Origin: Mesorhizobium sp. AR02
GTDB taxonomy: Bacteria; Pseudomonadota; Alphaproteobacteria; Rhizobiales; Rhizobiaceae
Length of the DNA stretch: 64,000 bases
NCBI RefSeq assembly: GCF_024746835.1
Contig: NZ_CP080530.1
Location: 924,423 to 988,422, forward strand
Direction of reading: 5' to 3'
The first letter of the stretch is position 1, and every line of letters starts with the position of its first letter. Under the pieces are notes generated by a model. The model was not told the DNA's origin, ran no database searches, and worked only from the letters and a program-made list of their open reading frames with translations. Below are positions 21-62,608 of this stretch, in pieces. Both the position numbers and the translations under genes were made by a program.

Positions 21-193
21 CGTTGCCTCCCTATTTGGGTATTGGCTTGGCAGGTCGGCGGGTATGCCTGCAAATGGGGTCGTGGTCGAACCAGGGAGCT
101 TGCCGAATTGGCGCACCCAAGTCCTGAGCCACAGCTGCGAAGAACAACTTGGACGAACACCGGTGCCGCCCGGCGTCGCGTTTCACGAAGAGG

Positions 194-210
194 CTCAAAA
201 GTCATGCCAA
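194..210 (-). promoter_or_regulatory. sigma-54-like -24/-12 promoter, NifA-type cassette copy 1
   Basis: On the minus strand the site reads TTGGCATGACTTTTGAG, matching the sigma-54 pattern TGGCAYG-N4-TTG, but with GA where GC is usual at -12. It has the same sequence as the site at 5944-5960 and lies about 104 bases from the TGT-N10-ACA site at 299-314. It points leftward to the gene starting at 20. Confidence 0.6.
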
Positions 211-298
211 TTGCGCCGAAGGAGCCTTAGAAATATTTTACTGAGTTTTGTTCAATGATTTGACCCGGAGTGCAGGAGGCAACCAGGGCGAAACAATG

Positions 299-314
299 TG
301 TCGCGGATCCAACA
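299..314 (-). promoter_or_regulatory. NifA-type upstream activator site, cassette copy 1
   Basis: The sequence tgtcgcggatccaaca is TGT-N10-ACA, the binding pattern of NifA. Spacing of roughly 100 bases to the -24/-12 site is normal for NifA activation through DNA looping. The block 162-430 is an inverted copy of 5733-6012. Confidence 0.6.
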
Positions 315-477
315 AACACGACAGTAGGTGTCGGTTGCCCGGCGTTTTCTCAGGAATTGGCGAAGGGGTTTAACAACGCGCGACTGGGAGCGGATCACAT
401 TGCGATCGGCGCTGACGACGGAGCATGCTACAGGCCGGAAATTGAACTGATATAAGTGCGTCAAATGGATACTTAGC

Positions 478-969
478 ATGGCGTTCCTAAGACTCGATCC
501 GATCGATCTCAAAATCCTCGACGCCATCCAGCGCGACGGGCGCATCACCAAGCTGGCGCTGGCCGACAAGGTCGGCCTGTCGCCGACCCCGTGCTGGATG
601 CGGCTGCGCAAGCTGGAAAAGGCCGGCATCGTTTCGGGCTATCACGCCAGCGTCGCCATGCGTTTGATCGCGCCGGTCGCCACCGTGCTGATGGAGGTGA
701 CGCTGGCGAACCACCGCCAGGCCGATTTCGACCGCTTTGAACGCGTCATCCGCGCCGTCCCCGAGATCGTCGCCTGCTGGTCGGTGGGTGGCGGCGTCGA
801 CTATGTTCTGAAGGTAATGGCGCGCGACATCGACGCCTATCAGCGGCTGGTCGACGCCTTGCTCGAGCGTGAGATCGGCATCGACCGTTACTTCACCTAC
901 ATCGTCACCAAGACGGTGAAGGAAGAGACCGTCTTGCCGGTGGCTAACCTGCTGCCGGCGCGATCGTAA
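478..969 (+). CDS. asnC: Lrp/AsnC-family transcriptional regulator (DoeX/AsnC-like)
   Basis: A 163-residue Lrp/AsnC (feast/famine) regulator. An N-terminal winged helix-turn-helix (residues about 5-60, with the family signature LDPIDLKILDAIQRDGRITK followed by LADKVGLSPTPCWMRLRKLE) precedes an RAM/AsnC ligand-binding domain (about 65-150). The length is normal. It sits 136 bases before a semialdehyde dehydrogenase gene on the same strand. In ectoine catabolic clusters an asnC (doeX) and an ssd (doeC) gene are standard neighbours, and other parts of such a cluster occur elsewhere in the window, so control of ectoine or diaminobutyrate breakdown is the likely role. The family call is firm; the specific role is inferred from context. 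Confidence 0.85.
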   Translation: MAFLRLDPIDLKILDAIQRDGRITKLALADKVGLSPTPCWMRLRKLEKAGIVSGYHASVAMRLIAPVATVLMEVTLANHRQADFDRFERVIRAVPEIVACWSVGGGVDYVLKVMARDIDAYQRLVDALLEREIGIDRYFTYIVTKTVKEETVLPVANLLPARS

Positions 970-1105: not shown

Positions 1106-2600
1106 ATGTCCGCGCACTTTGCCCGCACGATCCGCCATGACGCGCTCGATCGCGTCGCCGACCGCCGGCTGCTGCGCGAACTCGCCTATGTCGACGGCCA
1201 CTGGACGGCGAGCGAGGCCGCCGAAAGCTTCGAAGTCACCGATCCGGCCAGCGGCGCCACCATTGCCTTCGTTGCCGCGCTTGATGCGCAGCAAACGACA
1301 GAAGCGATCGATGCCGCTTCGCGCGCCTTTCCCGCCTGGCGGGCTCTGCTACCGCAGGAGCGCGCAAGGATCCTGCGAAAATGGTTCGAGCTTATCATCG
1401 CCGCCAAGGACGACCTGGCGCTGCTAATGACGCTCGAACAGGGCAAGCCACTCAAGGAGTCACTGGGCGAGATCGACTATGCCGCCTCCTTCGTCGAATG
1501 GTATGCGGAAGAAGCCAAGCGGCTCAACGCCGAGAGTGTCACAAGCCATCTGCTCGGGGCCGAGATGATGGTGCGGCGCGAGCCGATCGGTGTCGTCGGC
1601 GTCGTCACGCCTTGGAACTTTCCGTCAGCGATGTTGACACGCAAGGCGGCGGCAGCACTCGCCGCAGGCTGCACCATCGTCGCGCATCCGTCCTCGGAAA
1701 CGCCACTGTCGGCACTGGCGCTGGCCGAACTTGGCGAACGTGCCGGTCTGCCGGCTGGTGTCTTCAACGTCATCACCGGCAAGGCTTCGACGATCGTTGG
1801 GCGCAATGTGCGAGGACGCCCGCGTTCGCGCCATGAGCTTCACCGGCTCGACCGAGGTCGGCCGGTTGATCGCGGCGCAAAGTGCGCCGACGATGAAGCG
1901 GCTGGTGATGGAACTCGGCGGCCACGCTCCGCTGATCGTCTTCGACGATGCCGATATCGACAGAGCTGTGAGCATCGCTATCGACGCCAAATTCGCCACG
2001 TCAGGCCAGGACTGCCTTGCCGCCAACCGCATCTACGTGCAGCGGCCGATCTATGACCGGTTCTGCGCCGCCTTCGCCCGCCGCGTCGAGACGCTGCGGA
2101 TCGGCAATGGGCTCGCCGACGAAACCGACATCGGACCGCTGATGCACGAGCGGGCCGTCAAAAAGGTCGAGGAGCAGGTTGCCGACGCGCTCGCCCGCGG
2201 CGCGCGCTGCCTTGTCGGCGGCAAGCTTCACGCGGCGGGATCGCTGTTTTACCAGTCGACGCTGCTTGTGGACGTGCCCGACGAGGCGCAGATCATGCGC
2301 GAGGAGACCTTCGGTCCCGTCGCCGCCGTGACGCCGTTTGACGACGAGGCAGAGGTTGTCGCTCGCGCCAATGCCACCGAATATGGCTTGGTCGCCTATG
2401 TCGTGACCGAGAACGGCGCGCGCCAGCAGCGCATGGGCCGCGCCCTCGACTACGGCATGGTCGCCATCAACCGCGTAAAGATCACCGGCGCGCCGATCCC
2501 GTTCGGTGGCGTCAAGCAGTCAGGCATCGGCCGCGAGGGGTCGCGCCACGGATTAGAGGCCTTCACCGATCTCAAATATCTCTGCCTTAATGTAGCCTAG
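1106..2600 (+). pseudogene. ssd: frameshifted NAD(P)-dependent semialdehyde dehydrogenase (Ssd/GabD/DoeC-like)
   Basis: Aldehyde dehydrogenase of the succinate/aspartate-semialdehyde type. The start is the ATG at 1106 behind GGGAGG. The first frame carries the N-terminal half, including the active-site lead-in VTPWNFP. The second frame resumes at MCEDARVRAMSFTGSTEVG and runs through MELGGHAPLIVF, the catalytic-cysteine motif SGQDCLAANR, and EETFGPV to the end at 2600. The frames join if one G is removed from the run at 1799-1801, so one base insertion separates two otherwise complete halves. In ectoine catabolism this enzyme (Ssd or DoeC) would oxidise the semialdehyde made from diaminobutyrate. 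It may be a real pseudogene or a base-calling error. Confidence 0.8.
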
Positions 2601-4881: not shown

Positions 4882-4897
4882 TGTCAAGTTCGCGACA
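4882..4897 (+). promoter_or_regulatory. NifA-type upstream activator site, cassette copy 2
   Basis: tgtcaagttcgcgaca fits TGT-N10-ACA exactly and lies about 105 bases before the -24/-12 site at 4987-5003. Confidence 0.65.
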
Positions 4898-4986
4898 CGA
4901 CCCGCCTTAGAACGGATGTCCTGCTGTACGCAATTTAACCATTGAAAGCTTTGCGGATAATTTGTGCTGACGCTCTATGGGGGCAG

Positions 4987-5003
4987 TTGGCACGATTGTT
5001 GAA
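4987..5003 (+). promoter_or_regulatory. sigma-54-like -24/-12 promoter, NifA-type cassette copy 2
   Basis: ttggcacgattgttgaa matches TGGCACG-N4-TTG, with GA instead of GC at the -12 element. It points to the 98-residue gene at 5165. The block 4860-5040 is repeated in inverted orientation at 14890-15095. Confidence 0.65.
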
Positions 5004-5164
5004 GCTCCAAGTCAAGACCTAGACTAAGACTAGCCATGGGAAATCGCACGTGAGGGCCAGAAGTTCGTGCCACGGGACATGAAGGCATAACGGTGCGCTC
5101 GCGGCGCTAGAGGTATTTGAAATGGGCATCGGACAGCGGAAGCCCCATTGGACGAGAAGTTGAC

Positions 5165-5461
5165 ATGAAGACGATGCAGGAAAAGGACATCCCGGCGTTC
5201 GTGCAATCAGTTGTCGATATTGGCTGCGGCATACACGCGATTGGCCACTGGGGATACGTCTTTGGTGATGGCGAGTTAACGCCGGCGCAACAGAGGGCCA
5301 TCGTGCCACAACTGCGCTGGATTGCCGAAACCTACGGCGAACGCGATCATCTCATGGATGAGATAATCGCACATCTGCGGTCGATCGGACGCTATGTCGA
5401 GATTGAGCCGCAGACAGGTGTCCCTGATGGCGGAAACCGGATCCGCCTAAGTCGCCATTGA
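5165..5461 (+). CDS. small unknown protein behind a NifA-type promoter
   Basis: A 98-residue protein starting MKTMQEKDIPAFVQSVVDIG and ending ...RIRLSRH. Longer starts (TTG at 5117) are possible, but the ATG at 5165 gives the compact protein. It looks folded and soluble, with alternating charged and hydrophobic helices, an IHAIGHWGYVFGDGELTP turn and no signal peptide or membrane segment. I do not recognise a named family. The only context is the sigma-54/NifA-type promoter about 160 bases upstream, which suggests expression in nitrogen-fixing bacteroids. Isolated from other intact genes. Confidence 0.6.
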   Translation: MKTMQEKDIPAFVQSVVDIGCGIHAIGHWGYVFGDGELTPAQQRAIVPQLRWIAETYGERDHLMDEIIAHLRSIGRYVEIEPQTGVPDGGNRIRLSRH

Positions 5462-5841: not shown

Positions 5842-5857
5842 TGTCGAATCCGCGACA
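5842..5857 (+). promoter_or_regulatory. NifA-type upstream activator site, cassette copy 3
   Basis: tgtcgaatccgcgaca fits TGT-N10-ACA. It is the inverted counterpart of 299-314 and lies 102 bases before the -24/-12 site at 5944-5960. Confidence 0.65.
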
Positions 5858-5943
5858 CATTGTTTTCGGCCGTGCCTGCTGCACTCCGGGTCAAGTCATT
5901 GAACAAAACTCAGCAAAATATTTCTAAAGCTCCCTCGGCGCAG

Positions 5944-5960
5944 TTGGCATGACTTTTGAG
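5944..5960 (+). promoter_or_regulatory. sigma-54-like -24/-12 promoter in front of ectA, cassette copy 3
   Basis: ttggcatgacttttgag fits TGGCAYG-N4-TTG, with GA rather than GC at -12. The ectA start codon follows 58 bases downstream, a normal leader length. Confidence 0.65.
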
Positions 5961-6017: not shown

Positions 6018-6567
6018 ATGGTCAGTGATAGCCAGTGCTTCTCGTTGCCACGCAACGTCCCGTTGCCGCGAGTGACATTCCGAAGACCGACCGAGATTGA
6101 TGCAGCTGTTGTATGGGACCTCATTGCGAGGTGCCCGCCACTGGACCGCAACTCGCTGTACTGCGAGCTCCTGCTCTGCACTGATTTCGCCGACACCTGC
6201 GTGCTCGCTGAGCCTGCCGGGGCGGTGGTTGGGTGGATGTCGGCTTATCGGCGGCCGAGCGAGCCCTCGACGCTCTTCATTTTGGCAGATTGCCGTGCAT
6301 CCTGAGAAACGCAACACAGGGGTGGGCAAGGGCCTGATCATCTCAGCCCTGAACAGGCCATCTTGCGAGAGCGTGACGCAAATCAAAGCCACGGTGACGC
6401 TCAGCAACCGGGCGTCCAAGTTGCTCTTCCCAGATGTGGCTCGGGACCTACGCGCGCCAATGCGGCAAGCTCTCCGGTTCGATCGCCAAGCCCATTTTAA
6501 GGGACAGCATGAGAGCGAGCACACGTTCGACATTGCGATACGAGAAGCTCGCGACAATTCGCCCTGA
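6018..6567 (+). pseudogene. ectA: frameshifted L-2,4-diaminobutyrate N-acetyltransferase (ectoine biosynthesis)
   Basis: EctA is the GNAT enzyme that acetylates L-2,4-diaminobutyrate to N-gamma-acetyl-diaminobutyrate, the step before ectoine synthase. The start is the ATG at 6018 behind CGGAGG. The first frame contains the EctA hallmark region (TFRRPTEIDAAVVWDL, then LDRNSLYCELLLCTDFADTC, VVGWMSAYRRPSEPSTLF). The second frame resumes at WQIAVHPEKRNTGVGKGL (acetyl-CoA loop) and continues through LFPDVARDL to GQHESEHTFDIAIRE. Removing one T from the run at 6280-6283 restores TLFIWQIAVHPE, so a single-base insertion breaks a full-length gene of about 182 codons. No ectB or ectC follows. The gene is directly behind a NifA/sigma-54-type promoter. 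A real pseudogene or a read error cannot be distinguished here. Confidence 0.85.
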
Positions 6568-6607: not shown

Positions 6608-7318
6608 ATGCATGACCACGCGACCACCCTTGAGGTATCGACATATATCTGCTCGCTTGACCAAAAGGCCCGTAAAGCGGGCGTTCAATTCAGGATGGGG
6701 GAAGATTTTGAGGAGTACCTTTCAATTACCAGTAAGATTTCCGGGAAATATCCTACCTTTCCGAACTTCCGCCCGGATTGTTCACAGCTTGAGCCCGGCC
6801 AGGCGTTTTGGGTCGTTGGAGAAGATAAATTCGGTAAAGTAGCGCATGTCCAGGCGCTTCGTGTGGATGATCTGGCGCCTACCACCTTGGCTGACCATCT
6901 TGAGTCATTGAAAGCCTGCTATGTGGATCCTGCAAGGCATGCCGGCCCGGGTTCGTCGTGTGTTTGTGTCGCGCCGACTGCTCGGATTATAAGCGGGATC
7001 GTTGCGTATCACGGCGATTTATGGCTCCGAAGTGACCTTAGAGGACGGGGCTTAGCACCCACGCTTGCAGGTGTCGCTTTTGGGCTGGCATGGGCGAAAT
7101 GGTCCCCCGATTTCATCTATGCTCTTGTGCCTACTTGGCTCATCCAAAAGGGAGTCGCCGATCAATACGGCTATCTTCACAAAGAAGCACATGGATCCGT
7201 CCTGAGTTTACCTGATCGAGACATCGAAGATGATGACTGGCTCATTTGGCTAACTCAACGCGAGTTATCCCAGCTAATCAAATGTTCGGCGAATGAAACG
7301 ATCGAGCGGCTTTCTTGA
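6608..7318 (+). CDS. unknown GNAT-like protein
   Basis: A 236-residue protein starting MHDHATTLEVSTYICSLDQK, using the ATG at 6608 just past the end of ectA. Around residues 140-165 the text WLRSDLRGRGLAPTLAGVAF has the R-G-x-G-x-A pattern of the acetyl-CoA pyrophosphate loop followed by a helix, so an acetyltransferase fold is plausible. The N-terminal half is unfamiliar. Codon use appears less GC-rich than in the neighbours, which suggests separate origin. It is 41 bases after ectA on the same strand and could be co-transcribed from the NifA-type promoter. No signal peptide. Function unknown; acyl transfer to a small metabolite is a guess. Confidence 0.6.
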   Translation: MHDHATTLEVSTYICSLDQKARKAGVQFRMGEDFEEYLSITSKISGKYPTFPNFRPDCSQLEPGQAFWVVGEDKFGKVAHVQALRVDDLAPTTLADHLESLKACYVDPARHAGPGSSCVCVAPTARIISGIVAYHGDLWLRSDLRGRGLAPTLAGVAFGLAWAKWSPDFIYALVPTWLIQKGVADQYGYLHKEAHGSVLSLPDRDIEDDDWLIWLTQRELSQLIKCSANETIERLS

Positions 7319-8553: not shown

Positions 8554-9519
8554 TCAGCTAAAGCGACTAGTTTTGTCTATCACATTCTCCAGCGGCTTTC
8601 CTGTCACCCAGCGCTCAAGATTTTCGATGAACTTTGCTACGACATGGCCTCGCCAGCCATGGAGGTCCGCCGACATATGAGGTGACACAAACACCTGAGG
8701 CATACTCCAGAACGGATGATCCTTGGGTAGCGGCTCCACGGCAAAAACATCAAGCAAAGCGGTCCCTATCCGACCATCTTTGAGTGCTTCGAGCAATGCG
8801 TCCTCGTCCACCAAGCCGCCACGGCCGATGTTAATAAAAGATGAGCCAGGCTTCATTTGTGAGAAACGCGTCTTGTTCATAACTCCCGCAGTCTCAGAAG
8901 TTAACGGCAGAGATAGAATGACGGCGTCTGCTGCAGGAAGGAGATATTCAAGTTCATCCATTGAGTGCCTGCGACCAAAGAGAGGGTCATTCATGGTTTG
9001 GTGACGCCCAACCGCGATTACATTCACGCCTACTGCGCTTAGTAGGTTAAAAATCTCCCGGCCAATCGCGCCCGGCCCGATCAAGAGGACAGTTTGCCCT
9101 CTAAGCGCAAAGGTCTCTCTCTTTTTCCATTCCTTGGTATGCTGGAACTTTATGGTGTTTCGAAAATCCTTAGCCACCATCAGCAGTAATCCAAGAACAT
9201 ATTCTGCTATCGGATATTCAAAAACCCCGCGCGTGTTGGTTACCACGATCTCCGAAGACGCTAGGTCACTCGACAGGGCGGCATCAACCCCCACGCCAGC
9301 GATATGGATCCATTTGAGTTTTGGGGGTAAGGGATTGTTGCGAATTACTGGGTTAAAAATGTCCCAGAGTAAGAACCCGTCAGCATCCTGTAATTCCCGT
9401 ATCGCTTCGTCCGTGCTTTGAGTGAGGACTATATCTGCTAAGTTGTCAGCCTCGCTTAAGAAAGTAGAACTCTGGTCAAATGCCACCGGTAGTAGGGCGA
9501 CGATTTTTCGTCGGGGCAT
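8554..9519 (-). CDS. D-isomer-specific 2-hydroxyacid dehydrogenase
   Basis: A 321-residue NAD-dependent dehydrogenase. The start at 9519 (MPRRKIVALLPVAFDQSS) has GAGAGG seven bases upstream; a longer frame to 9687 would begin without such a site and overlap the small ORF at 9597-9770. The nucleotide-binding loop is LLIGPGAIGREI. The catalytic Arg (GRGGLVDEDALLEAL), Glu (LLDVFAVEPL) and His (VFVSPHMSAD) of the family are all present. Substrate unknown. It is the last gene of a leftward group after a flavin monooxygenase and a 57-residue ORF, which suggests reduction or oxidation of a 2-oxo/2-hydroxy acid released by the monooxygenase. Confidence 0.85.
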   Translation of the reverse strand: MPRRKIVALLPVAFDQSSTFLSEADNLADIVLTQSTDEAIRELQDADGFLLWDIFNPVIRNNPLPPKLKWIHIAGVGVDAALSSDLASSEIVVTNTRGVFEYPIAEYVLGLLLMVAKDFRNTIKFQHTKEWKKRETFALRGQTVLLIGPGAIGREIFNLLSAVGVNVIAVGRHQTMNDPLFGRRHSMDELEYLLPAADAVILSLPLTSETAGVMNKTRFSQMKPGSSFINIGRGGLVDEDALLEALKDGRIGTALLDVFAVEPLPKDHPFWSMPQVFVSPHMSADLHGWRGHVVAKFIENLERWVTGKPLENVIDKTSRFS

Positions 9520-9596
9520 TTGAATCCTCTCGAAAGTTGACAAGAAACTAGCTGATACCTCGAAACTAGCCAAGGCCGCGTTGGGGTAGTCGGTAT

Positions 9597-9770
9597 TCAT
9601 CGCATATGACGCGCATAGGCTTCGCCGAACACGCCCTCGGTCGAGCGAAACGATATACGCATGCCGTTGTTTTTGATCCCCAGACACCGAAAACCATCCG
9701 CACTAATCTTGAATTCGGGGTCGCGGGCTGCAACAAGCGGTTCGGCGATGGGAAGGGTATTCAAATTCAT
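9597..9770 (-). CDS. small ORF between monooxygenase and dehydrogenase
   Basis: A 57-residue frame from the ATG at 9770 (MNLNTLPIAEPLVAARDPEF then KISADGFRCLGIKNNGMRIS) with GGTGGAG immediately before the start. It begins 40 bases after the monooxygenase stop codon and ends about 78 bases before the dehydrogenase start, on the same strand. Composition is protein-like. No family recognised. It may be a real small operon protein or the truncated start of a larger one. Confidence 0.4.
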   Translation of the reverse strand: MNLNTLPIAEPLVAARDPEFKISADGFRCLGIKNNGMRISFRSTEGVFGEAYARHMR

Positions 9771-11102: not shown

Positions 11103-11675
11103 TCTGGGCTCCTTCAATTTGGCGTTTGATGTATATGCTGTTCTCAATGCAAAGGACGTGCCGACTGAGAACACGCCCAGTTAGGTCACTGAGTTACAAT
11201 CGTTTTCCTCAAGCCATCCAAACGATTGTGGAGCTAATGTTAGATTCAGGACCTGATGATCTTGTTCATAGTCAGACATCGCGACGAACCTATGAAAGCG
11301 GGCTGTCGCGCAAGGTCGGTCAGATGCACACCTGTTCGCGAGTGGCTAAAATGGTCAGCTTCAATTTCCGTATCGGGATCGAATGCCGGAAACATCGTCG
11401 TCTCTGATCGAATGCTGAGAGCCCACGGGCGTCGGACGTCGTTCCGGTTCGGCGCTCAATGACAATGCTCGCCGACTAGCTCACCAGTCCGTGTCTTGCC
11501 CAGCAAAACGCGGAAAAGCAGTTGGGCACCTCGATTTACCGCCGTTTCTGAGGCAAGAGGCGCAAGAATGGGCGTGGGTCACTGAACTCGGCATGCTCGG
11601 CGCAGGTTTTCCGCTTTACTGGGTTGATGGGTGGTTGATTTCTGCTTTGTGGCGGCTTTTTCTGCCGCCACACCG
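11103..11675. other. intergenic DNA, no gene recognised
   Basis: This region lies upstream of the monooxygenase operon and contains short frames without recognisable domains. It must hold the promoter of that operon, but I could not assign a -35/-10 or -24/-12 pair. Confidence 0.4.
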
Positions 11676-13033: not shown

Positions 13034-14215
13034 TCATTCGATCACGATCAGTTGGCGCGGACAGCTTGCCAGGCATTCCGCGTGTTTGTCGGTGATCAGA
13101 ATGCTTTCGGTGATCTCTATCCCCCAGTCACCAAACCAAAGGCCAGACATGAAGTGGAAAGTCATTCCAGGGCGCAGTTGGGTACGGTCACCAACCCGGA
13201 AGCTTGCCGAATGTTCGCCCCAGTCCGGAGGGTAGGCAAGACCAATCGAGTAGCCCGTACGGCTCGGCTTTATGAATCCATAGCGTTCGACAACGCGGTA
13301 ATAGGCCTTCGCAACATCTTCGCAGGTATTGCCCGGTTCGGCCTTCTCGAGGCCGGCCGCCATCCCCTCAACAACGGCCTTTTCCGCGTCGACGAACTTC
13401 TGGTCCGGCTTTCCAAGGTAAAACGTTCTTGAGAGAGGGCAATGGTAGCGCTTGTGGACACCTGCCAGTTCGAAGAAAATGCTTTCACCGGAGCGAATAG
13501 CGCGGTCGGACCAGGTCAGATGCGGTGCGGAGGCGTCGATGCCGGCGCCGATCATCGGAACTGCCGCTGGGTAGTCGCCCCAGAAGCCATCAACGCCACG
13601 AGTGGCGGTGTGGTAGATCTCAGCAACCACCTCAGACTGCCTGACGCCAGGCCGGAGCACTTCGGCCACGCGTTGGTGCATCGCCGTTACGATCTTGCCC
13701 GCTGTCTGCATGTACTCGATCTCCCGCGCCGACTTGACGATCCGCTGCCATTTGACCAGACGGGTAGTGTCCTTGAATGCGGCGTTCGGAAGCACCGAAG
13801 AAAGGGCTTCGAAGGCTGCATGGGTGAAATAGTAATTGTCCTTCTCAATCCCAATGACACCAGTGGACCAACCCTGATCCTTGATTAATGAGCCAAGTGC
13901 GGTCATTGGGTGATATTGAGAAGATTGAACGTAGTGATCAGCATACGACCTTATTCGGCTCTCATCCATGTAAATGGTACGACGGGCGCCGTTGGCATCC
14001 ATCTCCCGCCCGAACCAGACGGGATCTTCGTCCTGACGGACGAGCACACACTGGTGCACATAGAACGACCAGCCGTCGTAACCCGTTAGCCACGCCATAT
14101 TTGCGGGATCTGTGACGATAAGAAGATCAACGCCCTCGTGCTCCATTGCCGTTCGGGTCGCCTCAAGTCGGTAGTTATACTCGGAGACCTCAAAACGTAG
14201 TGGGGCGACAGTCAT
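13034..14215 (-). CDS. eutD: ectoine hydrolase (EutD/DoeA), copy 1
   Basis: A 393-residue member of the M24/creatinase-like fold. EutD/DoeA opens the ectoine ring to N-acetyl-diaminobutyrate in the cytoplasm. The DoeA hallmark LLIVTDPANMAWLTGYDGWS followed by FYVHQCVLV is present, as are GVDGFWGDYPAAVPMIGAGI, the active-site stretch SIFFELAGVHKRYHCPLSRT, and LRPGMTFHFMSGLWFGDWGI near the end. The start at 14215 has AAAGGAA upstream. It is very similar throughout to copy 2 at 25309-26493. Here it is alone, with IS66 debris upstream and IS5 debris downstream, and no deacylase beside it. Likely intact but displaced from its operon. Confidence 0.9.
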   Translation of the reverse strand: MTVAPLRFEVSEYNYRLEATRTAMEHEGVDLLIVTDPANMAWLTGYDGWSFYVHQCVLVRQDEDPVWFGREMDANGARRTIYMDESRIRSYADHYVQSSQYHPMTALGSLIKDQGWSTGVIGIEKDNYYFTHAAFEALSSVLPNAAFKDTTRLVKWQRIVKSAREIEYMQTAGKIVTAMHQRVAEVLRPGVRQSEVVAEIYHTATRGVDGFWGDYPAAVPMIGAGIDASAPHLTWSDRAIRSGESIFFELAGVHKRYHCPLSRTFYLGKPDQKFVDAEKAVVEGMAAGLEKAEPGNTCEDVAKAYYRVVERYGFIKPSRTGYSIGLAYPPDWGEHSASFRVGDRTQLRPGMTFHFMSGLWFGDWGIEITESILITDKHAECLASCPRQLIVIE

Positions 14216-14945: not shown

Positions 14946-14962
14946 TTCAACAATCGTGCCAA
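14946..14962 (-). promoter_or_regulatory. sigma-54-like -24/-12 promoter, orphan cassette copy 4
   Basis: The minus strand reads TTGGCACGATTGTTGAA, identical to 4987-5003. The gene it once drove has been replaced by IS66 debris. Confidence 0.55.
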
Positions 14963-15049
14963 CTGCGCCGAGAGAACGTCAGAACAAATTCTCTGCAAAT
15001 CATTCAATGGTTTAAATTGCGTACAGCAGGATTCGTTCTAACACGATCA

Positions 15050-15065
15050 TGTCGTGATCTTGATA
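15050..15065 (-). promoter_or_regulatory. degenerate NifA-type activator site, cassette copy 4
   Basis: tgtcgtgatcttgata aligns with the TGT-N10-ACA site of cassette copy 2, but the last triplet is ATA instead of ACA. Spacing to the -24/-12 site is conserved (about 103 bases), consistent with a decayed duplicate. Confidence 0.45.
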
Positions 15066-15449: not shown

Positions 15450-16829
15450 TCAGAGCAGAACTGGTTCAGGTTCGCTGTGCAGCAAATTATGAATGACGTT
15501 CAATCCGCGGTGCAGCTCCTCTTCCGTGGTCGACCCGACTGAAACGCGGACAGCTGGATGATTTTCCGAAATCGCAAATGCTGAGCCGCGCGCCAAGACT
15601 ACGCCCTGCATGCGAGCGTGTGAGACAAACTCATCTTCGGGAAACCGCTCACCAAGGGGAAGCCATATGTGGAGACTTGCACGGTTAGAACTGTATCGAA
15701 CACCTTTGAGAACAGATGCAACCAGCTCGTGCCGCTCAAGAAGCGTTGCGCGTTGCCATTCCACGAATTGTTGGCAGGTTCCATCCTCAACCCACCTTGC
15801 TGCGATTTCAGCGATCAACGGTGTGGCGCTCCAACTCGTGACGATTTGACGATTTTCGACTGCAGGGAGGAGACGTTCTGGCGCCACGAGATAACCCGTG
15901 CGTAGCCCGGACATGATGGGTTTCGTGAAGCTTGTGATATAAATGGTCCGTTCGGGCGCTAGAGCCTGAAAAGTTGGCGGCCTGTTGTCTACGAGCGGCC
16001 CCAGGGCGTCGTCCTCAATGATCTGCAAGTCGTATTTTCGAGCGATCTCCACAATCGCATTGCGCCGCCGCTCGCCCATAATGAATGCGGTTGGACCAAG
16101 GGCATTGGGCATCATGAAGAGCGCGCGAATGACGTGTTGCTGGCAGACGCTTTCGAGCGCATCGGGGATCAATCCCTCCTCGTCAATGGGCACACCCTGA
16201 ACCTTTAGACCAAGATATGAAGCCAATGGCAGCATCACATGGAGCCCTGTCGCTTCGGTAGCGATCGTCATGCCAGGCTGACAGGTCGACATAAAAGCGA
16301 CCGTCAAGGCGGGCGTTCCGCCATTCGTCAAATGTACTGTCCTCTCATCTGTATCGACACCGCAATACTTGAGCCATTCAGTTGCAATCGAGCGATGACG
16401 CGCGAAAAGAGTTCCTGGGCGAGAGCCGAACACGGTGCTCGGCGGCAAGTCGACAGCTAACGCCCCAAGTGTCTCCCGCATACGTTCGAGATGCAGAATG
16501 TCAGAGACGGGCTTCAGGATCGACAGGTCAATCAATCCGGAAGTGCGCAGGGGTGCGTATGGCGTGACAGCTTCAGAATTGACGCTAGGACTTTTGATAA
16601 ACGTTCCGCGTCCAATTTCCCCAGCGACGAGACCGCGACGAGCGAGTTCTTCATACGCTCGAGACACGGTGGGTAGCGAGACCCCGAGCTTAAAGGCAAG
16701 CTGCCTTTGCGGCGGAAGCTGCTCGCCTGGCTTCAAAGCCCCAGAAGAGACGGCTCCCGCGATCTGATCGGCAATCGACAGAAAATACGGCTGCGTAAGA
16801 CGTTCGTTGAGTGGTGTCCATATTGTCAT
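15450..16829 (-). CDS. enuR: MocR/GabR-type regulator of ectoine catabolism (EnuR)
   Basis: A 459-residue fusion of a GntR winged helix (residues about 5-75, IADQIAGAVSSGALKPGEQL then VSLPTVSRAYEELARRGLVA) to a fold-type I aminotransferase domain. The PLP lysine lies in YITSFTKPIMSGLRTGYL. EnuR represses ectoine uptake and breakdown genes and is released by N-alpha-acetyl-diaminobutyrate bound to its PLP. The start at 16829 (MTIWTPLNERLTQ) matches the start of the damaged second copy at 21862. It is divergent from an ehuB start (17145), the usual enuR arrangement. MocR-type regulators are named after rhizopine catabolism. The protein family is certain; the EnuR assignment rests on the divergent ehu genes. 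Confidence 0.85.
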   Translation of the reverse strand: MTIWTPLNERLTQPYFLSIADQIAGAVSSGALKPGEQLPPQRQLAFKLGVSLPTVSRAYEELARRGLVAGEIGRGTFIKSPSVNSEAVTPYAPLRTSGLIDLSILKPVSDILHLERMRETLGALAVDLPPSTVFGSRPGTLFARHRSIATEWLKYCGVDTDERTVHLTNGGTPALTVAFMSTCQPGMTIATEATGLHVMLPLASYLGLKVQGVPIDEEGLIPDALESVCQQHVIRALFMMPNALGPTAFIMGERRRNAIVEIARKYDLQIIEDDALGPLVDNRPPTFQALAPERTIYITSFTKPIMSGLRTGYLVAPERLLPAVENRQIVTSWSATPLIAEIAARWVEDGTCQQFVEWQRATLLERHELVASVLKGVRYSSNRASLHIWLPLGERFPEDEFVSHARMQGVVLARGSAFAISENHPAVRVSVGSTTEEELHRGLNVIHNLLHSEPEPVLL

Positions 16830-16938
16830 GCCCTGGGGTCCTATCGTCGACTCCCTCTGAGGAGCAAAAATCGTACCATTTCGAATAGCGCAACCAGAGG
16901 AAGCAGAGAATAGGAACTTAATGTCATTGTACAATTTA

Positions 16939-16948
16939 GTCAATTGAC
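16939..16948. promoter_or_regulatory. palindrome in the enuR-ehuB control region, copy 1
   Basis: GTCAATTGAC, a perfect 10-base palindrome preceded by CATTGTACAATTTA, is kept in both copies of the enuR/ehuB intergenic region (second copy 21984-21993), where other positions vary. It is a candidate regulator-binding or promoter element. Confidence 0.4.
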
Positions 16949-22165: not shown

Positions 22166-23029
22166 ATGGCATCAAACATCAAACGGCAGTCTTCTTTTTC
22201 TCCTCGCGGCCTAGCAACTGTACTGACCGCAATCTTGGCAATCACAACGGTGAGCGCTGCGATCGCGGACGATCTCGACGTCAACCAAGAGATTTCGATC
22301 GCCATCGGTGGTGAGCCGCCCTATACGGAGTTGAAGCCCGACGGTACATTGAGTGGCGCTGGCCCTGACATCGATCGCGGCGCATTGGCGCTCTCCGGGT
22401 TCAAGAACTTCAAAGGCGAGCTGATACAGTACGGGGCCATGATACCGGCCCTGCAGGCAAAACGCGTAAGAATTCTCTCAGCCGGCTCTCTCAACATTCG
22501 CCCCGAACGTTGCACCGTCGTTGATTTCGCTGAACCGGCCATCTGCACTGCGCAAGCTTTCCTGATCCGCTCCGACATGAGTGGCAAGTTCAAAAGCTAC
22601 AAGGAATTTGCCGACCTAGGCCTCAAGCTGGCGGTGGGCGCCGGCACTTTGCAGGCCCGAGATGCGCTCTCAGCCGGAGTGAAGCAAGAGAACCTGGTTC
22701 CCTATCCTGACAACACCAGTGCGGTGAAGATGCTGCAAGACAAGCGCGTCGATGCCATCGCCCTAAATGATGCGGGTGTCATAGACATGAAGAGTCGGTC
22801 GGGTGATGATACTTTGCAGACCATCATACCGATCGCCAACACTCCTATTGATTGTGCAGCCGCAGCCTTCAATAAAGAGGATAAGGCACTACGCGACGCC
22901 TACAATGTAGGCCTGAAAAAGCTAAAGGACAGTGGCGAGTTCGAGAAGATCATGGCGAAATATGGTCTTCAAACGAACTACAAGATTTTGGCTAATGCCA
23001 AGTCAGCAGCTGAGATGTGCAATCCGTAA
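22166..23029 (+). CDS. ehuB: ectoine/hydroxyectoine-type ABC transporter binding protein EhuB
   Basis: A 287-residue family 3 periplasmic binding protein with a signal peptide (LATVLTAILAITTVSAAIA, cleavage about residue 34). It delivers ligand to the EhuACD importer. Compared with Sinorhizobium EhuB, the ligand residues Glu and an aromatic are kept in GGEPPYTEL, Tyr in QYGAMIPALQ, and Arg in RPERC. The aromatic expected just before that Arg (Phe in EhuB) appears to be Asn (SLNIRPERC), so affinity or substrate may differ, for example acetyl-diaminobutyrate. First gene of the ehuBACD-eutD operon, divergent from the truncated enuR. Family is certain, exact ligand inferred. Confidence 0.85.
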   Translation: MASNIKRQSSFSPRGLATVLTAILAITTVSAAIADDLDVNQEISIAIGGEPPYTELKPDGTLSGAGPDIDRGALALSGFKNFKGELIQYGAMIPALQAKRVRILSAGSLNIRPERCTVVDFAEPAICTAQAFLIRSDMSGKFKSYKEFADLGLKLAVGAGTLQARDALSAGVKQENLVPYPDNTSAVKMLQDKRVDAIALNDAGVIDMKSRSGDDTLQTIIPIANTPIDCAAAAFNKEDKALRDAYNVGLKKLKDSGEFEKIMAKYGLQTNYKILANAKSAAEMCNP

Positions 23030-23047
23030 TTCACTCCAGGTGATAAC

Positions 23048-23071
23048 GCCCAGCAGCGAGTGCTGCTGGGC
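23048..23071 (+). terminator. intercistronic hairpin between ehuB and ehuA
   Basis: A perfect 10-base-pair stem, GCCCAGCAGC and GCTGCTGGGC, with a four-base loop starts 18 bases after the ehuB stop codon. There is no U-tract. Such hairpins after a binding-protein gene usually stabilise its mRNA or partly terminate, so that more binding protein than ATPase is made. Confidence 0.6.
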
Positions 23072-23098
23072 TGGCATCGCACGAAAGGAGACAGCGCA

Positions 23099-23914
23099 AT
23101 GGGATTGCATGTCGCACCCAAGGCTCCAGATTGCCCGCCCATCATTGAATTCCGGGACGTTGAGAAAAGCTATGGTTCCCTCAAGGTGCTGGAACAGCTC
23201 TCGTTCTCGGTGAAAGCTGGTGAGCATCTTGCGCTGATTGGTCCATCAGGCTCGGGAAAAACGACGATCCTTAGAATTTTGATGACGGTCGAGTCGGTTA
23301 CAGCTGGAGATGTGATCGTCAATGGCGTTTGCCTAAACCACGAGCAAAGAGGCGATAAACAAGTACCGTCGTCGGAGGCGCATCTACGCAGAATGCGTGG
23401 CGCCTTCGGAATGGTCTTCCAACATTTCAACCTCTTTCCGCATAAAACCGCTCTTCAGAACGTTGCCCTCGCCCCGGTGCTGACTGGAAGTCTGTCGAAA
23501 GCGGCAGCCAAAGAACGTGCGCTGCAAATGCTGGAAAACGTTGGGCTCGCCGACAAAGCACATGAGTATCCGTCAAGATTATCTGGCGGCCAAAAACAAC
23601 GCGTCGCGATTGCCCGTGCTCTCGCTTTGCAGCCCAAAATACTACTCCTTGACGAGATCACCTCCGCTCTTGATCCGGAGCTGGTGGAAGAGGTCCTAAA
23701 CGTCATCACAAATCTCCGCAACGAGACCGACATGACGATGCTCCTGGTTACCCACGAGATGGGTTTCGCCAAGGATTTTGCCGACCGAGTGTTGTTCTTC
23801 GAGCGCGGCAAGATCGTTGAAGAAGGCCCGCCGTCGGAAATCTTTCAGTCGCCTCACCACGAGCGCACGAAAAGCTTCCTTCGCAAGATAATCGCCGCAG
23901 GCCATCGCGTTTGA
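23099..23914 (+). CDS. ehuA: ectoine-type ABC transporter ATP-binding protein EhuA
   Basis: A 271-residue polar amino acid type ATPase. ATG at 23099 has AAAGGAGA upstream. Walker A is GPSGSGKTTILR, the Q-loop is FGMVFQHFNLFPH, the signature LSGGQKQRVAIARAL, Walker B KILLLDEITSALDPELV, and the switch histidine VTHEMG. It energises the EhuCD permease. Followed 33 bases later by ehuC. Confidence 0.9.
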   Translation: MGLHVAPKAPDCPPIIEFRDVEKSYGSLKVLEQLSFSVKAGEHLALIGPSGSGKTTILRILMTVESVTAGDVIVNGVCLNHEQRGDKQVPSSEAHLRRMRGAFGMVFQHFNLFPHKTALQNVALAPVLTGSLSKAAAKERALQMLENVGLADKAHEYPSRLSGGQKQRVAIARALALQPKILLLDEITSALDPELVEEVLNVITNLRNETDMTMLLVTHEMGFAKDFADRVLFFERGKIVEEGPPSEIFQSPHHERTKSFLRKIIAAGHRV

Positions 23915-23947
23915 GTCGGTCAGTCAAGGCAGGGCAAGGTCATCCCA

Positions 23948-24616: not shown

Positions 24617-24625
24617 GGTTAATCA

Positions 24626-25285: not shown

Positions 25286-25308
25286 GCAGCCGAATTGAGG
25301 AATCAACC

Positions 25309-58989: not shown

Positions 58990-60189
58990 TCATGATGTGT
59001 CCTGGTATGGCGGGCGTCCGGTGACGCCGTCGAATGTTTCGATGATGATCATCTGCCCGCGATGGCACGCCGGGCATTGCCTGAGGGAATGCCCGGTGAG
59101 GGCCTCGTAGCGGTCGCGATAGTCCTTTGCGGATCGGCTGTCCGACGGCTCGGGAACCGGCATGCCGAGCAGGTCCCGACAGCGGGCGAGCTTTTGCGCG
59201 CGATAGCGATTGCCGAGGAAGCCGTAGTAGCGGATGCGATGAAAGCCCTCGGGCAGGACGTGTAGCAGGAAGCGGCGAATGAACTCGTCAGACGCGACGG
59301 TCATGACCTTCTGCCGACTGCCGTGCCGATAGTCCTTCCAGCGGAAGGCGACTTTGCCGTCCTCGATGGCGACGAGGCGATTGTTGGAAATGGCGACGCG
59401 GTGGGTATAGCGGCCGACGTAGTCGAGGACCTGTTCGGATCCGGCGAATGGCGGCTTGGCATAGATGACCCACTCGGCCTTTCGTAGCGGCGCCAGATAG
59501 CCCCGGAAGGCATCGCGCTCGCTCAACGCCTGCAAGTCAGAGAAGAACTTCAACAGGCCGGCGTCGAAGGCTTTCTCCAGGTGCTCCAGAAACAATCGTC
59601 GAAACAGGCGTGAGAGCACGCGGACCGGCAGGAAAAAGCCGGGCTTGCATGCGACCCATCGATCGCCGTCGGCAGAAAGGCCGCCGCCTGGGACGACGCA
59701 ATGCAGATGCGGATGATGGAGCAGGTTTTGGCCCCAGGTGTGCAACACGGCGAAGAAGCCGATCTCGGCGCCCAGGTGCTTGGGATCGGCGGCGATGATG
59801 CGCAGGGTCTCGGCGGTGGCGCGGAAGAGCAGGCCGTAGACGAGTGCCTTGTTCTGATAGGCAATGGCGGCAATGGGCTCCGGCAGCGTGAAGACGACGT
59901 GAAAGTATTGGGTGTCGAGAAGCTCGGCGCGACGATCCTCCAGCCATTGTGCGCGGGCCAGCGATTGGCAGCGAGGGCAATGCCTGTCGCGGCAGCTGTT
60001 GAACGCGATGCGCCGGTGGCCGCATTGATCGCATGCTTCGACGTGCCCACCGAGTGCGGCGGTCCGGCACAATTCGATCGCCGTCATGACGCGGCGCTGG
60101 GCCGTCGACAGCGACGCATCATGCTGTGCGCGATAGGCTTCGCCGTAGCAGCGGAAGATATCCGCCACTTCCGGCCCCGAGCGAGCCAT
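58990..60189 (-). CDS. IS91-family HUH transposase, copy B
   Basis: Protein identical in sequence to the one at 53011-54210 (399 residues, with the CDQCGHRRIAFNSCRDRHCP zinc region and the HPHLHC HUH motif). Confidence 0.9.
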   Translation of the reverse strand: MARSGPEVADIFRCYGEAYRAQHDASLSTAQRRVMTAIELCRTAALGGHVEACDQCGHRRIAFNSCRDRHCPRCQSLARAQWLEDRRAELLDTQYFHVVFTLPEPIAAIAYQNKALVYGLLFRATAETLRIIAADPKHLGAEIGFFAVLHTWGQNLLHHPHLHCVVPGGGLSADGDRWVACKPGFFLPVRVLSRLFRRLFLEHLEKAFDAGLLKFFSDLQALSERDAFRGYLAPLRKAEWVIYAKPPFAGSEQVLDYVGRYTHRVAISNNRLVAIEDGKVAFRWKDYRHGSRQKVMTVASDEFIRRFLLHVLPEGFHRIRYYGFLGNRYRAQKLARCRDLLGMPVPEPSDSRSAKDYRDRYEALTGHSLRQCPACHRGQMIIIETFDGVTGRPPYQDTS

Positions 60190-60198
60190 TGCCGCCGC

Positions 60199-61080
60199 TC
60201 AGAAGTATTGCGGCTTGGCGGGCGGCGGCACGGTGGGCGCCGGACGCGGCAAGAGCTCGAAGGGGCTCGATGTGGCGCAGACTTTGTTGGTGGCGATCCG
60301 CAGGTAATGGGCGGTGGTCGCGAGGCTGCGGTGACCGAGCAGCAGTTGAATGGTGCGCACGTCGGCACCGGCCTCCAGCAGATGGACGGCGAAGGCGTGT
60401 CTCAAACTGTGTGGCGTGACCGGTTTGGACAATCCGGAGAGGTCCTGCGCTTTCGCGCAGGCTTGTCCCACCGCACTCCTGGTGATCGGCTGGTCGGCAC
60501 GATCGCCGGGGAAGAGCCATTCCTTCGGTCGCCGCATCTTCCAGTAATCGCGCAGAATCTCCAGCAGCTTGGGCGACAGCATCACATAGCGGTCCTTCTG
60601 ACCTTTGCCCTGCTCGATGCGGATGACCATTCTCTGGCTGTCGATGTTCGTGGGCTTCAGCTGCACCGCTTCCGAGATGCGCAAGCCGGCCGCGTAGCAC
60701 GTGGTCAGGATGGCGTGATGTCTTACACTGAGGACGCAACCGAGGAACCGCTGAACTTCCTCTGGACTGAGGACGATCGGCAGCTTCTGCGGCTTCTTGG
60801 GAAGCGGCAGGACCTCTTCAGGCGCCCAGTCCCGATCGAGCGTCACAGTGTAGAGAAAGCGCAGCGCCGCAATGGCGGTGTGGATCGAGCCGGGCGCCAG
60901 CTTCTTCTCGTTGACCAGATAGACCTGATAGGTCCGAATGTCCTCGCGCCCGAGCAAGTCCGGCGACTTACCGAAGTGGCGAGCGAACAGCGACACCTGT
61001 TGCAGATACGACAGCTGGGTGTTGAGCGCGAAGTTGCGCACCTGCATGTCCTCGCTCATGCGCTGGCGAAGTTGGGTCAT
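60199..61080 (-). CDS. tyrosine recombinase of IS91-type element, copy B
   Basis: Protein identical to the one at 52120-53001 (293 residues). The start at 61080 has AAAGGAGG upstream. A longer frame extends into the aspartokinase gene because the element entered it on the same strand; that fusion frame is accidental. Confidence 0.88.
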   Translation of the reverse strand: MTQLRQRMSEDMQVRNFALNTQLSYLQQVSLFARHFGKSPDLLGREDIRTYQVYLVNEKKLAPGSIHTAIAALRFLYTVTLDRDWAPEEVLPLPKKPQKLPIVLSPEEVQRFLGCVLSVRHHAILTTCYAAGLRISEAVQLKPTNIDSQRMVIRIEQGKGQKDRYVMLSPKLLEILRDYWKMRRPKEWLFPGDRADQPITRSAVGQACAKAQDLSGLSKPVTPHSLRHAFAVHLLEAGADVRTIQLLLGHRSLATTAHYLRIATNKVCATSSPFELLPRPAPTVPPPAKPQYF

Positions 61081-61250
61081 GACAAACTCCTCCTTTGTCT
61101 GATGGAATGGGCTGCAAGCAGCCACTCCATGCTGACAAAGCGAGAGCTTCTTGTGGACTCATGACCAGCGCGACAGACGACGCGATCAACACCACGCCGG
61201 CGGCCCACACCTTCCTTGCCGCTCCGCGATCGCGGAGCGGGTTAGTCCAA

Positions 61251-62608
61251 TAAACATTATATCCACGTTGCGCATGAGCTGGTGCACTCCCAGGACCTCT
61301 ATGCAAGCATTCCGCTAACGCTTGCACAGCAATGGCCGTTAGGCTCTGGCGATTGAGTGCGCTTCCGATGGCCGAGACAATGCTCACCTTTCTCGAGGCA
61401 ATGTTAGCCGTTAGAAAGTTTTCCTCCAGCGCCTTGACAACGGGCGCGATTGCCTCGGGCGCCGCGGCGAGGTAATGCGTGATGGTATTTGCATTCGATG
61501 TCTTGGTAATGACGCGGACCGCATGGGCTTTCAACGTTTGGAGAATCTCCGCGTCATAGCCGATCACGCCCGCCATATCCTGGTCAAAGAACTCCAGGGC
61601 ATACACTCCCCTGAAGCCCACGACAATTTCTGCCCGAGGCGTGTCGGTGACGTAGTCGCGCGTGATGACGGTTCCATCGCATCCAGGATCGAATGTGTTC
61701 TTGATCCTAAGAGGAATATTTGAATGGCGCAGCTCCTTGGCCGCGGCCCAGTGAATCGCCTCCAGTTCCAGGTTGGCGAGTTGATCGGCGACATCATAGT
61801 TGGTGCGGCCGACAGCACGGACCCGCTCGATACCTACGATTTTGGGGTCGGCTGTCGAAAGATGGAACTCCTTGTGGATTATTGCCTCCTTGGCGCGTGT
61901 GAGCACGGCAATCCGGGCGAAGGTGGCCTCGGTGTAGCCGCGGCCATAGAGCCGCACCAGGCCACCCGGGCATCGACTGTAGCCCGTGACGATCGGCAGC
62001 TGCTTGCCGAGATCGATCGCGGATAGCGCTGCCCCGATTCGCGCGTCAAGACTCATTTCAGTTTCGTCGCGCCAGCCCGTCATGTCCACGAACATCGCCT
62101 CCACGCCGAGTGTCCTGAGGAGCAGAACCGTGTTGTGGGTACTGTGGGCTTCGCCCTGCGCGGCCAGAATCTCGCGCACGGCATTCAGGTGCTCTTCGAG
62201 CTTGAAGTGTCCATAGGAGCAAACTCGCTGAAGATCCAACAGACAGCCGCGCACTCCTTCAATTCGGTCGCTCACAAAATCGTCGGCGACGCGCCTTTCC
62301 GGCGAGCTGCCGAAGATCTCCGCATTGATCCTCGTCATCTCCCGATGGGTCTCGGCGACAGCTTCAACCCAAGCTGCTCTTGATCTGGCGCGCGCGAAGA
62401 GTGCATAGACGCCCGGCTTGCCGGTCTTCTTGTGCTCGAGAAGCCGGTCCGTCATCCCGTTGTAAGCGGATAAGACGAATATGCGGTTGTAGAGTGCGCT
62501 TCCCTTGCGCCTCCCAACCAGGACGTTCTCGAGTATGGCAGCGGGGTTGGAGATCGACGTGCCTCCAATCTTCTCGACGGTGTGGATGCCTGGCCGGCAG
62601 TTCGGCAA
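61251..62608 (-). pseudogene. ask_ect: ectoine-type aspartate kinase, interrupted by IS91
   Basis: Ask_Ect makes aspartyl phosphate for ectoine synthesis and lies after ectABC in many bacteria. The TTG at 62608 is the likely start because GGAGGTG is ideally placed; a TTG at 62623 is also open. Landmarks are HTVEKIGGTSISNPAAILEN, YNRIFVLSAYNGMTDRLLEH then KKTGKPGVYALFA, LLLRTLGVEAMFVDMTGWRD, IVTGYSRCPGGLVRLYGRGY and IAVLTRAKEAIIHKEFHLST, followed by ACT domains (VGFRGVYALEFFDQDMAGVI). One extra base near 61310 shifts the frame before IEVLGVHQLMRNVDIMF, and IS91 copy B then splits the gene. The last 46 codons are at 58488-58626. Confidence 0.85.

Follow-up and report, generated by a model that had tools for sequence, protein, structure and literature searches.

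The rhizopines scyllo-inosamine and 3-O-methyl-scyllo-inosamine are inositol amines whose production is described for a small number of species in Rhizobium and Sinorhizobium; passages of PMC10107442 place their synthesis genes (mos) under NifA in bacteroids and state that producers typically also hold the catabolic genes (moc) and a MocR-type regulator. Ectoine is a classical compatible solute, and the control of the ectABC operon is typically osmotic, as described in parts of PMC5924519. In Mesorhizobium loti, several nifH-type promoters stand before other, unrelated genes, and nifH fragments are known (PMC3538637, Table 1); an A at position -12 is known from the nifH promoters of M. loti and R. 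etli (PMC3538637). No paper tying ectoine or NifA-driven ect genes to rhizopines was among the matches listed from the open-licence literature. Herein, the last 64 kb (bases 924423-988422) of contig C1 (988,422 bp) of Mesorhizobium sp. AR02, called the window below, was analyzed for ectoine synthesis (ect) genes with a nifH-type promoter and for genes of ectoine uptake and catabolism in the same region. The original prediction, made from the letters of the window, had proposed a rhizopine-like exchange of ectoine or acetyl-diaminobutyrate. The AR02 genome comprises 8.9 Mb in 4 contigs, including C2 of 7.5 Mb. C1 is also the nitrogenase contig, with four nitrogenase-component genes (PF00148) at C1:107-113 kb and nifH at C1:113337-114161.

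The comparison with relatives shows a real and conserved operon of symbiotic replicons, in which a nifH-type promoter is predicted to drive a mostly fused ectAB followed by ectC, often near genes of ectoine use. In AR02 the synthesis genes are eroded. Since a relative, strain AR07, still has the whole set, the eroded NifA-type synthesis genes near ectoine-use genes suggest that nodule bacteria may feed their free-living kin. The synthesis genes and putative promoters of the window are listed below; the bit scores of window proteins were judged against the NCBIfam profile cut-offs, and UAS stands for upstream activator sequence.

21..156, minus strand: ectA remnant, internally deleted, leading into an intact ectB left of the window
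194..314, minus strand: nifH-type promoter of the eroded ect operon that exits the window leftward, UAS 314-299 TGTTGGATCCGCGACA, -24/-12 box from 209 TGGCATGACTTTTGAG
4882..5003, plus strand: nifH-type promoter before an open reading frame (ORF) of 97 amino acids, UAS 4882-4897, -24/-12 box at 4988
5842..5960, plus strand: nifH-type promoter of ectA, UAS 5842-5857 TGTCGAATCCGCGACA, -24/-12 box at 5945 TGGCATGACTTTTGAG, 103 bp apart
6018..6534, plus strand: ectA pseudogene split over two frames, 6018-6281 and then about 6259-6534
11148..11278, minus strand: NifA-type promoter of ntaA, UAS 11278-11263, -24/-12 box from 11163, kept in relatives
14946..15065, minus strand: nifH-type promoter upstream of a second eutD, one UAS half-site changed
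60968..62623, minus strand: ectoine-type aspartokinase (PRK09181, 603 bits, cut-off 536, profile search), C-terminus missing

The nifH-type pattern was TGT-N10-ACA upstream of GG-N10-G(C/A), and it was set after the sites had been seen. With this post hoc pattern, four pairs of site and box (4882/4988, 5842/5945, 11278/11163, and 314/209) were counted in the window, compared with a mean of 0.05 and a maximum of 1 in 60 mononucleotide shuffles. The NifA-type promoter that the original prediction had placed before ectA was confirmed. The 97-amino-acid ORF behind its own nifH-type promoter (window 4882-5461) is 92% conserved in strain N.Ca.IN.012 (IN012).

Among 12 regions upstream of ect genes, nine carry a nifH-type promoter: those of the window, M. 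kowhaii, M. waimense, AR07 plasmid pMspAR07c, M. ventifaucium, M. loti UFLA 01-765, IN012, LCM4579, and S. fredii GR64. The strict upstream site is present in eight, and the site of GR64 has one changed base. The promoter was not found before ect in AR07 plasmid pMspAR07d, in genome G048, or before the second ectA of AR02. The copy at the left window edge is a tenth, beyond these nine. No ectA start was available for YC-39 and M. sangaii, which are outside this count. G147 was merged with G048 in the linkage, promoter, and substitution-rate counts, as their ect regions are identical, and G056, which holds one ectA and ectC pieces apart from each other, was excluded from every count. The distance from UAS to box is 103-106 bp in the ect regions, compared with 104 bp for AR02's own nifH and 106 bp for that of GR64. 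The ect boxes have A at -12, with C in M. ventifaucium; this A is not read as a defect because the nifH promoters of M. loti and R. etli share it. At the promoter level, judged by sequence, synthesis is placed under the nodule-specific NifA control that is known from rhizopines.

As a control, 30 other ectB-like genes of the genus were scanned, and a pair of site and box within 1 kb was found for none of them (0/30). Identity between these control loci and the symbiotic type is 45-56%, and the EctB matches of the genus at large (82 of 146 genomes) were rejected as ectoine operons. In genome G160 (C1:1322350-1331000), two diaminobutyrate (DABA) transaminase-like genes lie near siderophore-synthetase-like ORFs, as judged from ORF starts; this could be the msi260-type context of M. 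loti R7A.

The synthetic half of the window was predicted to be broken, and it is: ectA is split between two frames, and neither ectB nor ectC, which follow ectA in the relatives, is found between it and the ORF at 6608. The first 88 residues of the window ectA are 95% identical to the intact AR07 EctA, and at the DNA level it shares 92-93% identity with the loci of M. kowhaii and AR07. Left of the window, the intact ectB (C1:923171-924400) is followed by a frameshifted ectC and an aspartokinase gene (ask). The second ectA, full length, stands at the start of C1 (C1:493-1284), with just 45 residues of ectB behind it. C2 carries an orphan ectC-like gene whose type is common across the genus. 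AR02 holds three ruined ect sets, not one, and no intact ectABC operon was found in its genome, where ectA is in split frames, further ectA and ectB copies are separate, and ectC is frameshifted or an orphan. Production has likely been lost in AR02. The ectoine-type aspartokinase, described earlier as nearby, is indeed in the window and over its cut-off, but it lies 55 kb from ectA and is C-terminally truncated. Its profile match reaches position 426 of the 476 in the profile (residue 438, about 61310) and so falls about 50 positions short, ending just before an integrase ORF that starts at 61158.

Intact ectA, ectB, and ectC were identified together in seven loci: AR07 pMspAR07c, M. waimense, S. 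fredii GR64, M. loti UFLA 01-765, M. ventifaucium, G048, and G147. A nifH-type promoter precedes five of these seven. In all of the seven except M. ventifaucium, ectA and ectB are joined in a single open frame; M. kowhaii has the same fusion next to a truncated ectC, and the fusion frame is thus kept in seven loci. The fused frame is about 630-655 codons long (L123:19407-21308; L077; L124; L081; L074; L035/L036), and EctAB is predicted to be a natural bifunctional enzyme. When the EctA part was searched among proteins of 348-1108 amino acids, eight fused proteins were found, seven of them 74-89% identical and one 48%; the six with an organism given, all of them in the 74-89% group, were from Mesorhizobium or S. 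fredii. For EctC, 120 of 204 relatives were listed; of these, every one with a named organism and at least 78% identity was from Mesorhizobium or Sinorhizobium, and the others were at most 72% identical. AR07 EctC matches a solved EctC with 170 bits, and EctA and EctB also match solved structures.

The ect genes are under purifying selection in the relatives. The median pairwise ratio of nonsynonymous to synonymous substitution rates (dN/dS, NG86) was 0.11 for ectB (78 pairs), 0.18 for ectC (15 pairs), and 0.37 for ectA (21 pairs), where the ectA value is raised by the upstream and linker codons of the open frame. Broken copies are found in IN012, AR07 pMspAR07d, LCM4579, and YC-39, along with a split ectB in pMspAR07c (L082) and the truncated ectC in M. 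kowhaii. A second full-length ectC, with 51-52% identity to the symbiotic type, lies near ect genes in M. kowhaii (L039/L040 17209-17583) and in pMspAR07d (L126:23048-23422).

The genes of ectoine uptake and catabolism in the window are as follows.

478..969, plus strand: AsnC/Lrp-type regulator, DoeX-like, 87% identical to the C2 copy
1106..2600, plus strand: ssd for a DoeC-like aldehyde dehydrogenase, with a frameshift and 90-91% identity to the C2 copy
13034..14215, minus strand: second ectoine hydrolase (EutD/DoeA), 618 bits, over the cut-off
15450..16943, minus strand: EnuR/EhuR, MocR-type regulator, 592 bits (cut-off 480)
22166..25285, plus strand: ehuB, ehuA, ehuC, and ehuD of an ectoine ABC importer (bits/cut-off: EhuB 214/191, EhuA 392/345, EhuC 251/197, EhuD 284/205)
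25228..26493, plus strand: eutD/DoeA ectoine hydrolase, 608 bits (cut-off 613)
26448..27722, plus strand: M20 amidohydrolase, a distant DoeB2 relative (215 bits, cut-off 550) and candidate acetyl-DABA deacetylase
27668..28477, plus strand: eutA-like gene, 201 bits (cut-off 318)

A putatively EnuR-regulated uptake and catabolism set of EnuR, Ehu importer, EutD, and deacetylase is recognisable by profile, the putative deacetylase being the M20 protein below the DoeB2 cut-off. The catabolic set had been called near-complete. This holds for enuR, ehuBACD, eutD, the M20 gene, eutA, and asnC, all of which are present, but ssd is frameshifted and the M20 and eutA proteins score below their cut-offs. 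The second eutD (13034-14215) is an addition to that gene set. The UAS of its promoter is intact in IN012, and the leader of about 730 bp between promoter and gene holds no conserved ORF. The window EutD (25228-26493) aligns nearly full length with a solved DoeA (493 bits), and the window EhuB matches the solved ectoine-binding EhuB with 175 bits. A second ectoine cluster is carried on C2 of AR02, including an asnC-ssd pair like that of the window; the ssd frame is intact on C2. The EhuB proteins of the window and of C2 share 40% identity, and one position at which the window protein differs is presumably part of the aromatic cage for ectoine.

The original prediction also held that the inducer of EnuR is of the same compound class as the product of EctA. 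This claim failed. According to parts of PMC8739950, EnuR binds alpha-acetyl-DABA (alpha-ADABA), the product of EutD, and shows no binding of gamma-ADABA, the product of EctA. Signalling through EnuR by acetyl-DABA from EctA is therefore ruled out within the scope of that source. As EnuR is unresponsive to gamma-ADABA, the currency of exchange should be ectoine.

The linkage of synthesis and catabolism, proposed as a check, was compared among ten assessable loci, which share ancestry in part and are not ten independent cases; M. waimense, LCM4579, and M. sangaii, with contigs of 4.3, 9.7, and 14.9 kb, are outside the count. An intact NifA-driven ect operon linked to ehu-eut genes was found in relatives. 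On pMspAR07c (360 kb), EnuR, a hydroxyacid dehydrogenase, ehuABCD, eutA, doeA, and doeB, all C2-like, lie within 17 kb after ectAB-ectC. The same plasmid also bears the window-type operon (enuR, ehuBACD, eutD, M20, eutA) and asnC-ssd, about 200 kb from ectAB-ectC; its proteins are 93-98% identical to those of the window except for eutD, whose best match is 85% to the second eutD. One and the same synthetic operon is thus linked to catabolic operons with two different gene orders. UFLA 01-765 has ehuA, C, D, eutA, doeA, doeB, and ehuB 8-17 kb from ectABC. The check was positive in part for M. ventifaucium, which has EnuR, ehuABCD, and eutA near ect but neither doeA nor doeB up to the contig end. 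For the catabolic genes near ect, the window and IN012 share a type of their own. IN012 (L037) keeps the window gene order, and outside the broken ect genes the proteins are about 90-98% identical: a small ORF, ectA (internally deleted), ectB, ectC pieces, an acetyltransferase-like ORF, hydroxyacid dehydrogenase, ntaA, eutD2 (the second eutD), enuR, ehuBACD, eutD, M20, and eutA.

Importer and hydrolase lie together within about 25 kb of ect in four of the ten loci (window, IN012, pMspAR07c, and UFLA 01-765), and importer genes within this distance in five, M. ventifaucium being added with EnuR and without hydrolase. M. kowhaii and pMspAR07d have eutD with EnuR or M20, G048 has EnuR on both sides, YC-39 has M20 within flanks of 10 kb, and GR64 has none of these genes. 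In GR64, about 2 kb separate ectABC from nifHDKENX, and the operon is accompanied by nodulation genes as well as those of nitrogenase. The window-type EhuB is present in 3 of the 146 genus genomes, and all three have ect genes of the symbiotic type.

Expression data from other rhizobia bear on the promoter. In B. diazoefficiens nodules, ectC (blr2106) is changed by log2 -6.5 in the nifA mutant, in an excerpt of PMC4926349 (Table 3) that lists no nifH value for it. In P. phymatum nodules, the nifA mutant has ectB at log2 -7.58 and lower diaminobutanoate (parts of PMC8305402), and an ion annotated as ectoine is lower (log2 -1.4) in rpoN nodules (part of PMC5979394, Table 2). In M. loti R7A, the DABA transaminase gene msi260 is nifA2-dependent in nodules without such a promoter, and the symbiosis of its mutant is fully effective (PMC3538637). 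The nifA-dependence of ectC or ectB in nodules has been reported by others for other rhizobia; for the present genes it is predicted from the promoter. The acetyltransferase beside P. phymatum ectB was rejected both as an EctA member and as a homologue of the protein encoded at 6608-7318 in the window.

Several neighbours of the ect genes were also examined.

6608..7318, plus strand: uncharacterised protein, after the ect genes in two relatives (IN012 and M. sangaii)
8554..9687, minus strand: D-2-hydroxyacid dehydrogenase, downstream of ntaA
9810..11102, minus strand: ntaA, NtaA/DmoA-family FMN (flavin mononucleotide) monooxygenase, recurrent neighbour of ectAB-ectC

The 6608-7318 protein has no Pfam match but 72 homologues, and wherever an organism is given for one of these it belongs to the rhizobia (Mesorhizobium, Sinorhizobium, Ensifer, Rhizobium, Bradyrhizobium, and Microvirga). 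Five of the six-frame ORFs at 2.6-4.8 kb and 7.4-8.5 kb likewise have no Pfam match. The ntaA gene occurs in 7 of 146 genus genomes, 5 of which have ect genes of the symbiotic type. Its NifA-type promoter was found in five of six loci; the sixth is the broken ntaA of M. kowhaii, which gave no start for the scan. The promoter is also present in G112 (C2:198199-199488), where no ect genes lie in the 40 kb read, and in G014 the box alone was found.

Two further observations concern other parts of the window. Two inverted copies of an IS91-type transposase (52036-54210 and 58990-61164) flank a MATE transporter (55249-56646) and an apparent ATP-grasp fragment (56728-57232, judged by eye). A DoeA-like peptidase lies beside an ATP-grasp ligase (32596-33783 and 34856-36121), and a similar pair seems to be present in G160 (C1:1336095-1338614). 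In P. phymatum, ATP-grasp-type Bphy_7633 and MATE transporter Bphy_7634 are strongly nifA-dependent (parts of PMC8305402). By analogy, the peptidase/ATP-grasp pair may belong to another NifA-linked product.

The genes, putative promoters, intact relatives, partial linkage, and apparent selection described here were read from DNA. Tentatively, and at slightly less than an even balance of probability, we favor a nodule-specific, rhizopine-like ectoine economy of symbiotic replicons that has been worn down in AR02. NifA and RpoN would drive the usually fused EctA-EctB with EctC, and in some copies the ectoine-type aspartokinase, via the nifH-type promoter. Bacteroids would then turn aspartate semialdehyde into ectoine during nitrogen fixation. 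By the second set on the same replicon (EnuR, Ehu, EutD, deacetylase, and EutA), free-living kin would import ectoine for carbon and nitrogen. The AR02 window would be the mainly consuming version, with a complete catabolic operon and broken synthetic operons. That these strains make ectoine in their nodules, that it is released, and that kin use it is our inference. That the system works like that of the rhizopines is plausible, with the chances a little short of even.

The proposal of exchange stands in part: intact linked relatives exist and the logic of producer and consumer is plausible, but a number of results weigh against it. The link from acetyl-DABA to EnuR fails unless EutD acts first, because EnuR does not bind the EctA product. 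The common-type EhuB (>400 bits) is present in 56 of 61 genus genomes, AR02 included, so ectoine is not a private food and the benefit to kin is not exclusive; the confinement of catabolism to producers and a few others, known from rhizopines, is not seen here. Linkage is missing in GR64, where the 41 kb read contain no gene of catabolism and the ect plasmid gives no match to EnuR, and M. ventifaucium lacks the hydrolase genes as described above. In G048 and G147 the operon is intact, no NifA-type promoter can be recognised before it, and EhuB is absent from the 40 kb read. The intact ectC of symbiotic type occurs in 6 of 146 genus genomes, all six with nifH; as nifH is present in 100 of the 146, this overlap arises by chance with a probability of about 0.10. 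In P. phymatum, the 35 kb read around the nifA-dependent ectB contain neither ectA nor ectC, so this ectB may serve another product. The description of AR02 as a consumer that lost production fits its eroded synthesis genes, but an intact ectA, an intact ectB, and the orphan ectC-like gene on C2 are still present elsewhere in the genome, so that these scattered copies may still allow some ectoine production. Loss of synthesis alone does not show cheating. Finally, protection of the bacteroid is a serious rival.

A stronger form of the exchange reading is that ectoine, or here alpha-acetyl-DABA, is a second class of rhizopine with unrelated chemistry, made by fused EctAB and EctC from a captured nifH promoter on Mesorhizobium and Sinorhizobium symbiotic replicons, eaten by kin through EnuR-ehu-eut operons of the same replicon, and exploited by strains of the AR02 type, in which catabolism is retained and synthesis has decayed. 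Alpha-acetyl-DABA would enter as the hydrolysis product of ectoine. This form is possible but doubtful. The rival just named is that NifA-driven ectoine is kept inside the bacteroid as a compatible solute or chaperone, and that ehu-eut salvages it later, with no selection for the feeding of kin. The classical role of ectoine as a compatible solute favors it, as does the report that heterologous ectoine genes, on a construct that also carries glycine betaine genes, restore the symbiosis of trehalose-deficient B. diazoefficiens (parts of PMC8092242). The GR64 operon without linked catabolism and the nearly genus-wide uptake of ectoine would also fit. However, the promoter is of the nitrogen-fixation type and not osmotic, EnuR and ehu-eut sets recur beside the synthesis genes though AR02 already has one on C2, and the loss of synthesis with catabolism retained would be unexpected. 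We consider protection somewhat unlikely on this balance.

It is improbable, in our judgement, that a modified form of ectoine, or else open-chain acetyl-DABA, is what the system yields; in that case NifA-driven NtaA, and here also eutD2, would act on ectoine, and the divergent EhuB would import the resulting compound. The promoter of ntaA and its company with ect genes (5 of 7 genomes) point that way, along with the nifH-type promoter of eutD2 in two strains and the 40% identity between the two EhuB proteins of AR02, with their difference at a presumed cage position. However, ntaA stands without ect genes in the 40 kb read of G112, site and box were not both found in G014, and the eutD2 promoter is 730 bp off with its upstream site changed in the window. 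An equally slim chance is given to a decaying cargo, in which an ect operon would have acquired a second copy of the nifH promoter, been carried along by symbiotic replicons and insertion sequences, and become functionless, its linkage to ehu-eut reflecting a place where catabolic genes gather: broken copies and insertion sequences are abundant and stray nifH-type promoters are known in M. loti. Against it, seven loci are intact, ectB and ectC evolve under purifying selection, the promoter spacing is conserved across two genera, and the fusion frame is kept.

If the exchange of ectoine is true, nutritional mediation gains a second chemistry beside the inositol amines, for which the compounds are purchasable, the enzymes are known, and both producer and non-producer strains are sequenced. 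The feeding of free-living kin by bacteroids and exploitation by non-producers would become testable questions. The exchange might also explain the presence of ectC and ectB among the strongly nifA-dependent genes reported, in the parts cited above, for Bradyrhizobium and Paraburkholderia nodules.

Compared with the known systems, the AR02-type system resembles the rhizopine mos/moc genes in pairing NifA-promoter synthesis genes with catabolic genes and the MocR-type EnuR. It differs in that ectoine derives from aspartate and is no inositol amine, catabolism is widespread in the genus, and exudation would have to be assumed. The enzymes found are those of ectoine, EnuR reaches 81 bits against the rhizopine MocR profile (cut-off 650), and no search aimed at mos genes was made. 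By chemistry and by non-exclusivity, the system is not a member of the known rhizopine family. With the osmoregulated ectABC(-ask) operons it shares the same three enzymes and, in some copies, the ectoine-type aspartokinase. Unlike them, it has a nifH-type NifA promoter, most intact copies encode EctA and EctB as one fused protein, and in GR64 it stands beside nod and nitrogenase genes. The -24/-12 box with A at -12 and the upstream site are like those of the M. loti R7A NifA-RpoN regulon, in which such promoters serve further genes, whereas Table 1 of PMC3538637 has no ect operon. The regulator, importer, hydrolase, and EutA of the EnuR-ehuABCD-eut/doe clusters of S. meliloti, R. pomeroyi, and AR02 C2 are recognisable in the window, whose asnC-ssd pair is almost a duplicate of that on C2. 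Unlike those clusters, the window has the order ehuBACD-eutD-M20-eutA, a distant EhuB and EutA, M20 in place of DoeB, and a second eutD, and its operon is physically linked to NifA-driven synthesis genes.

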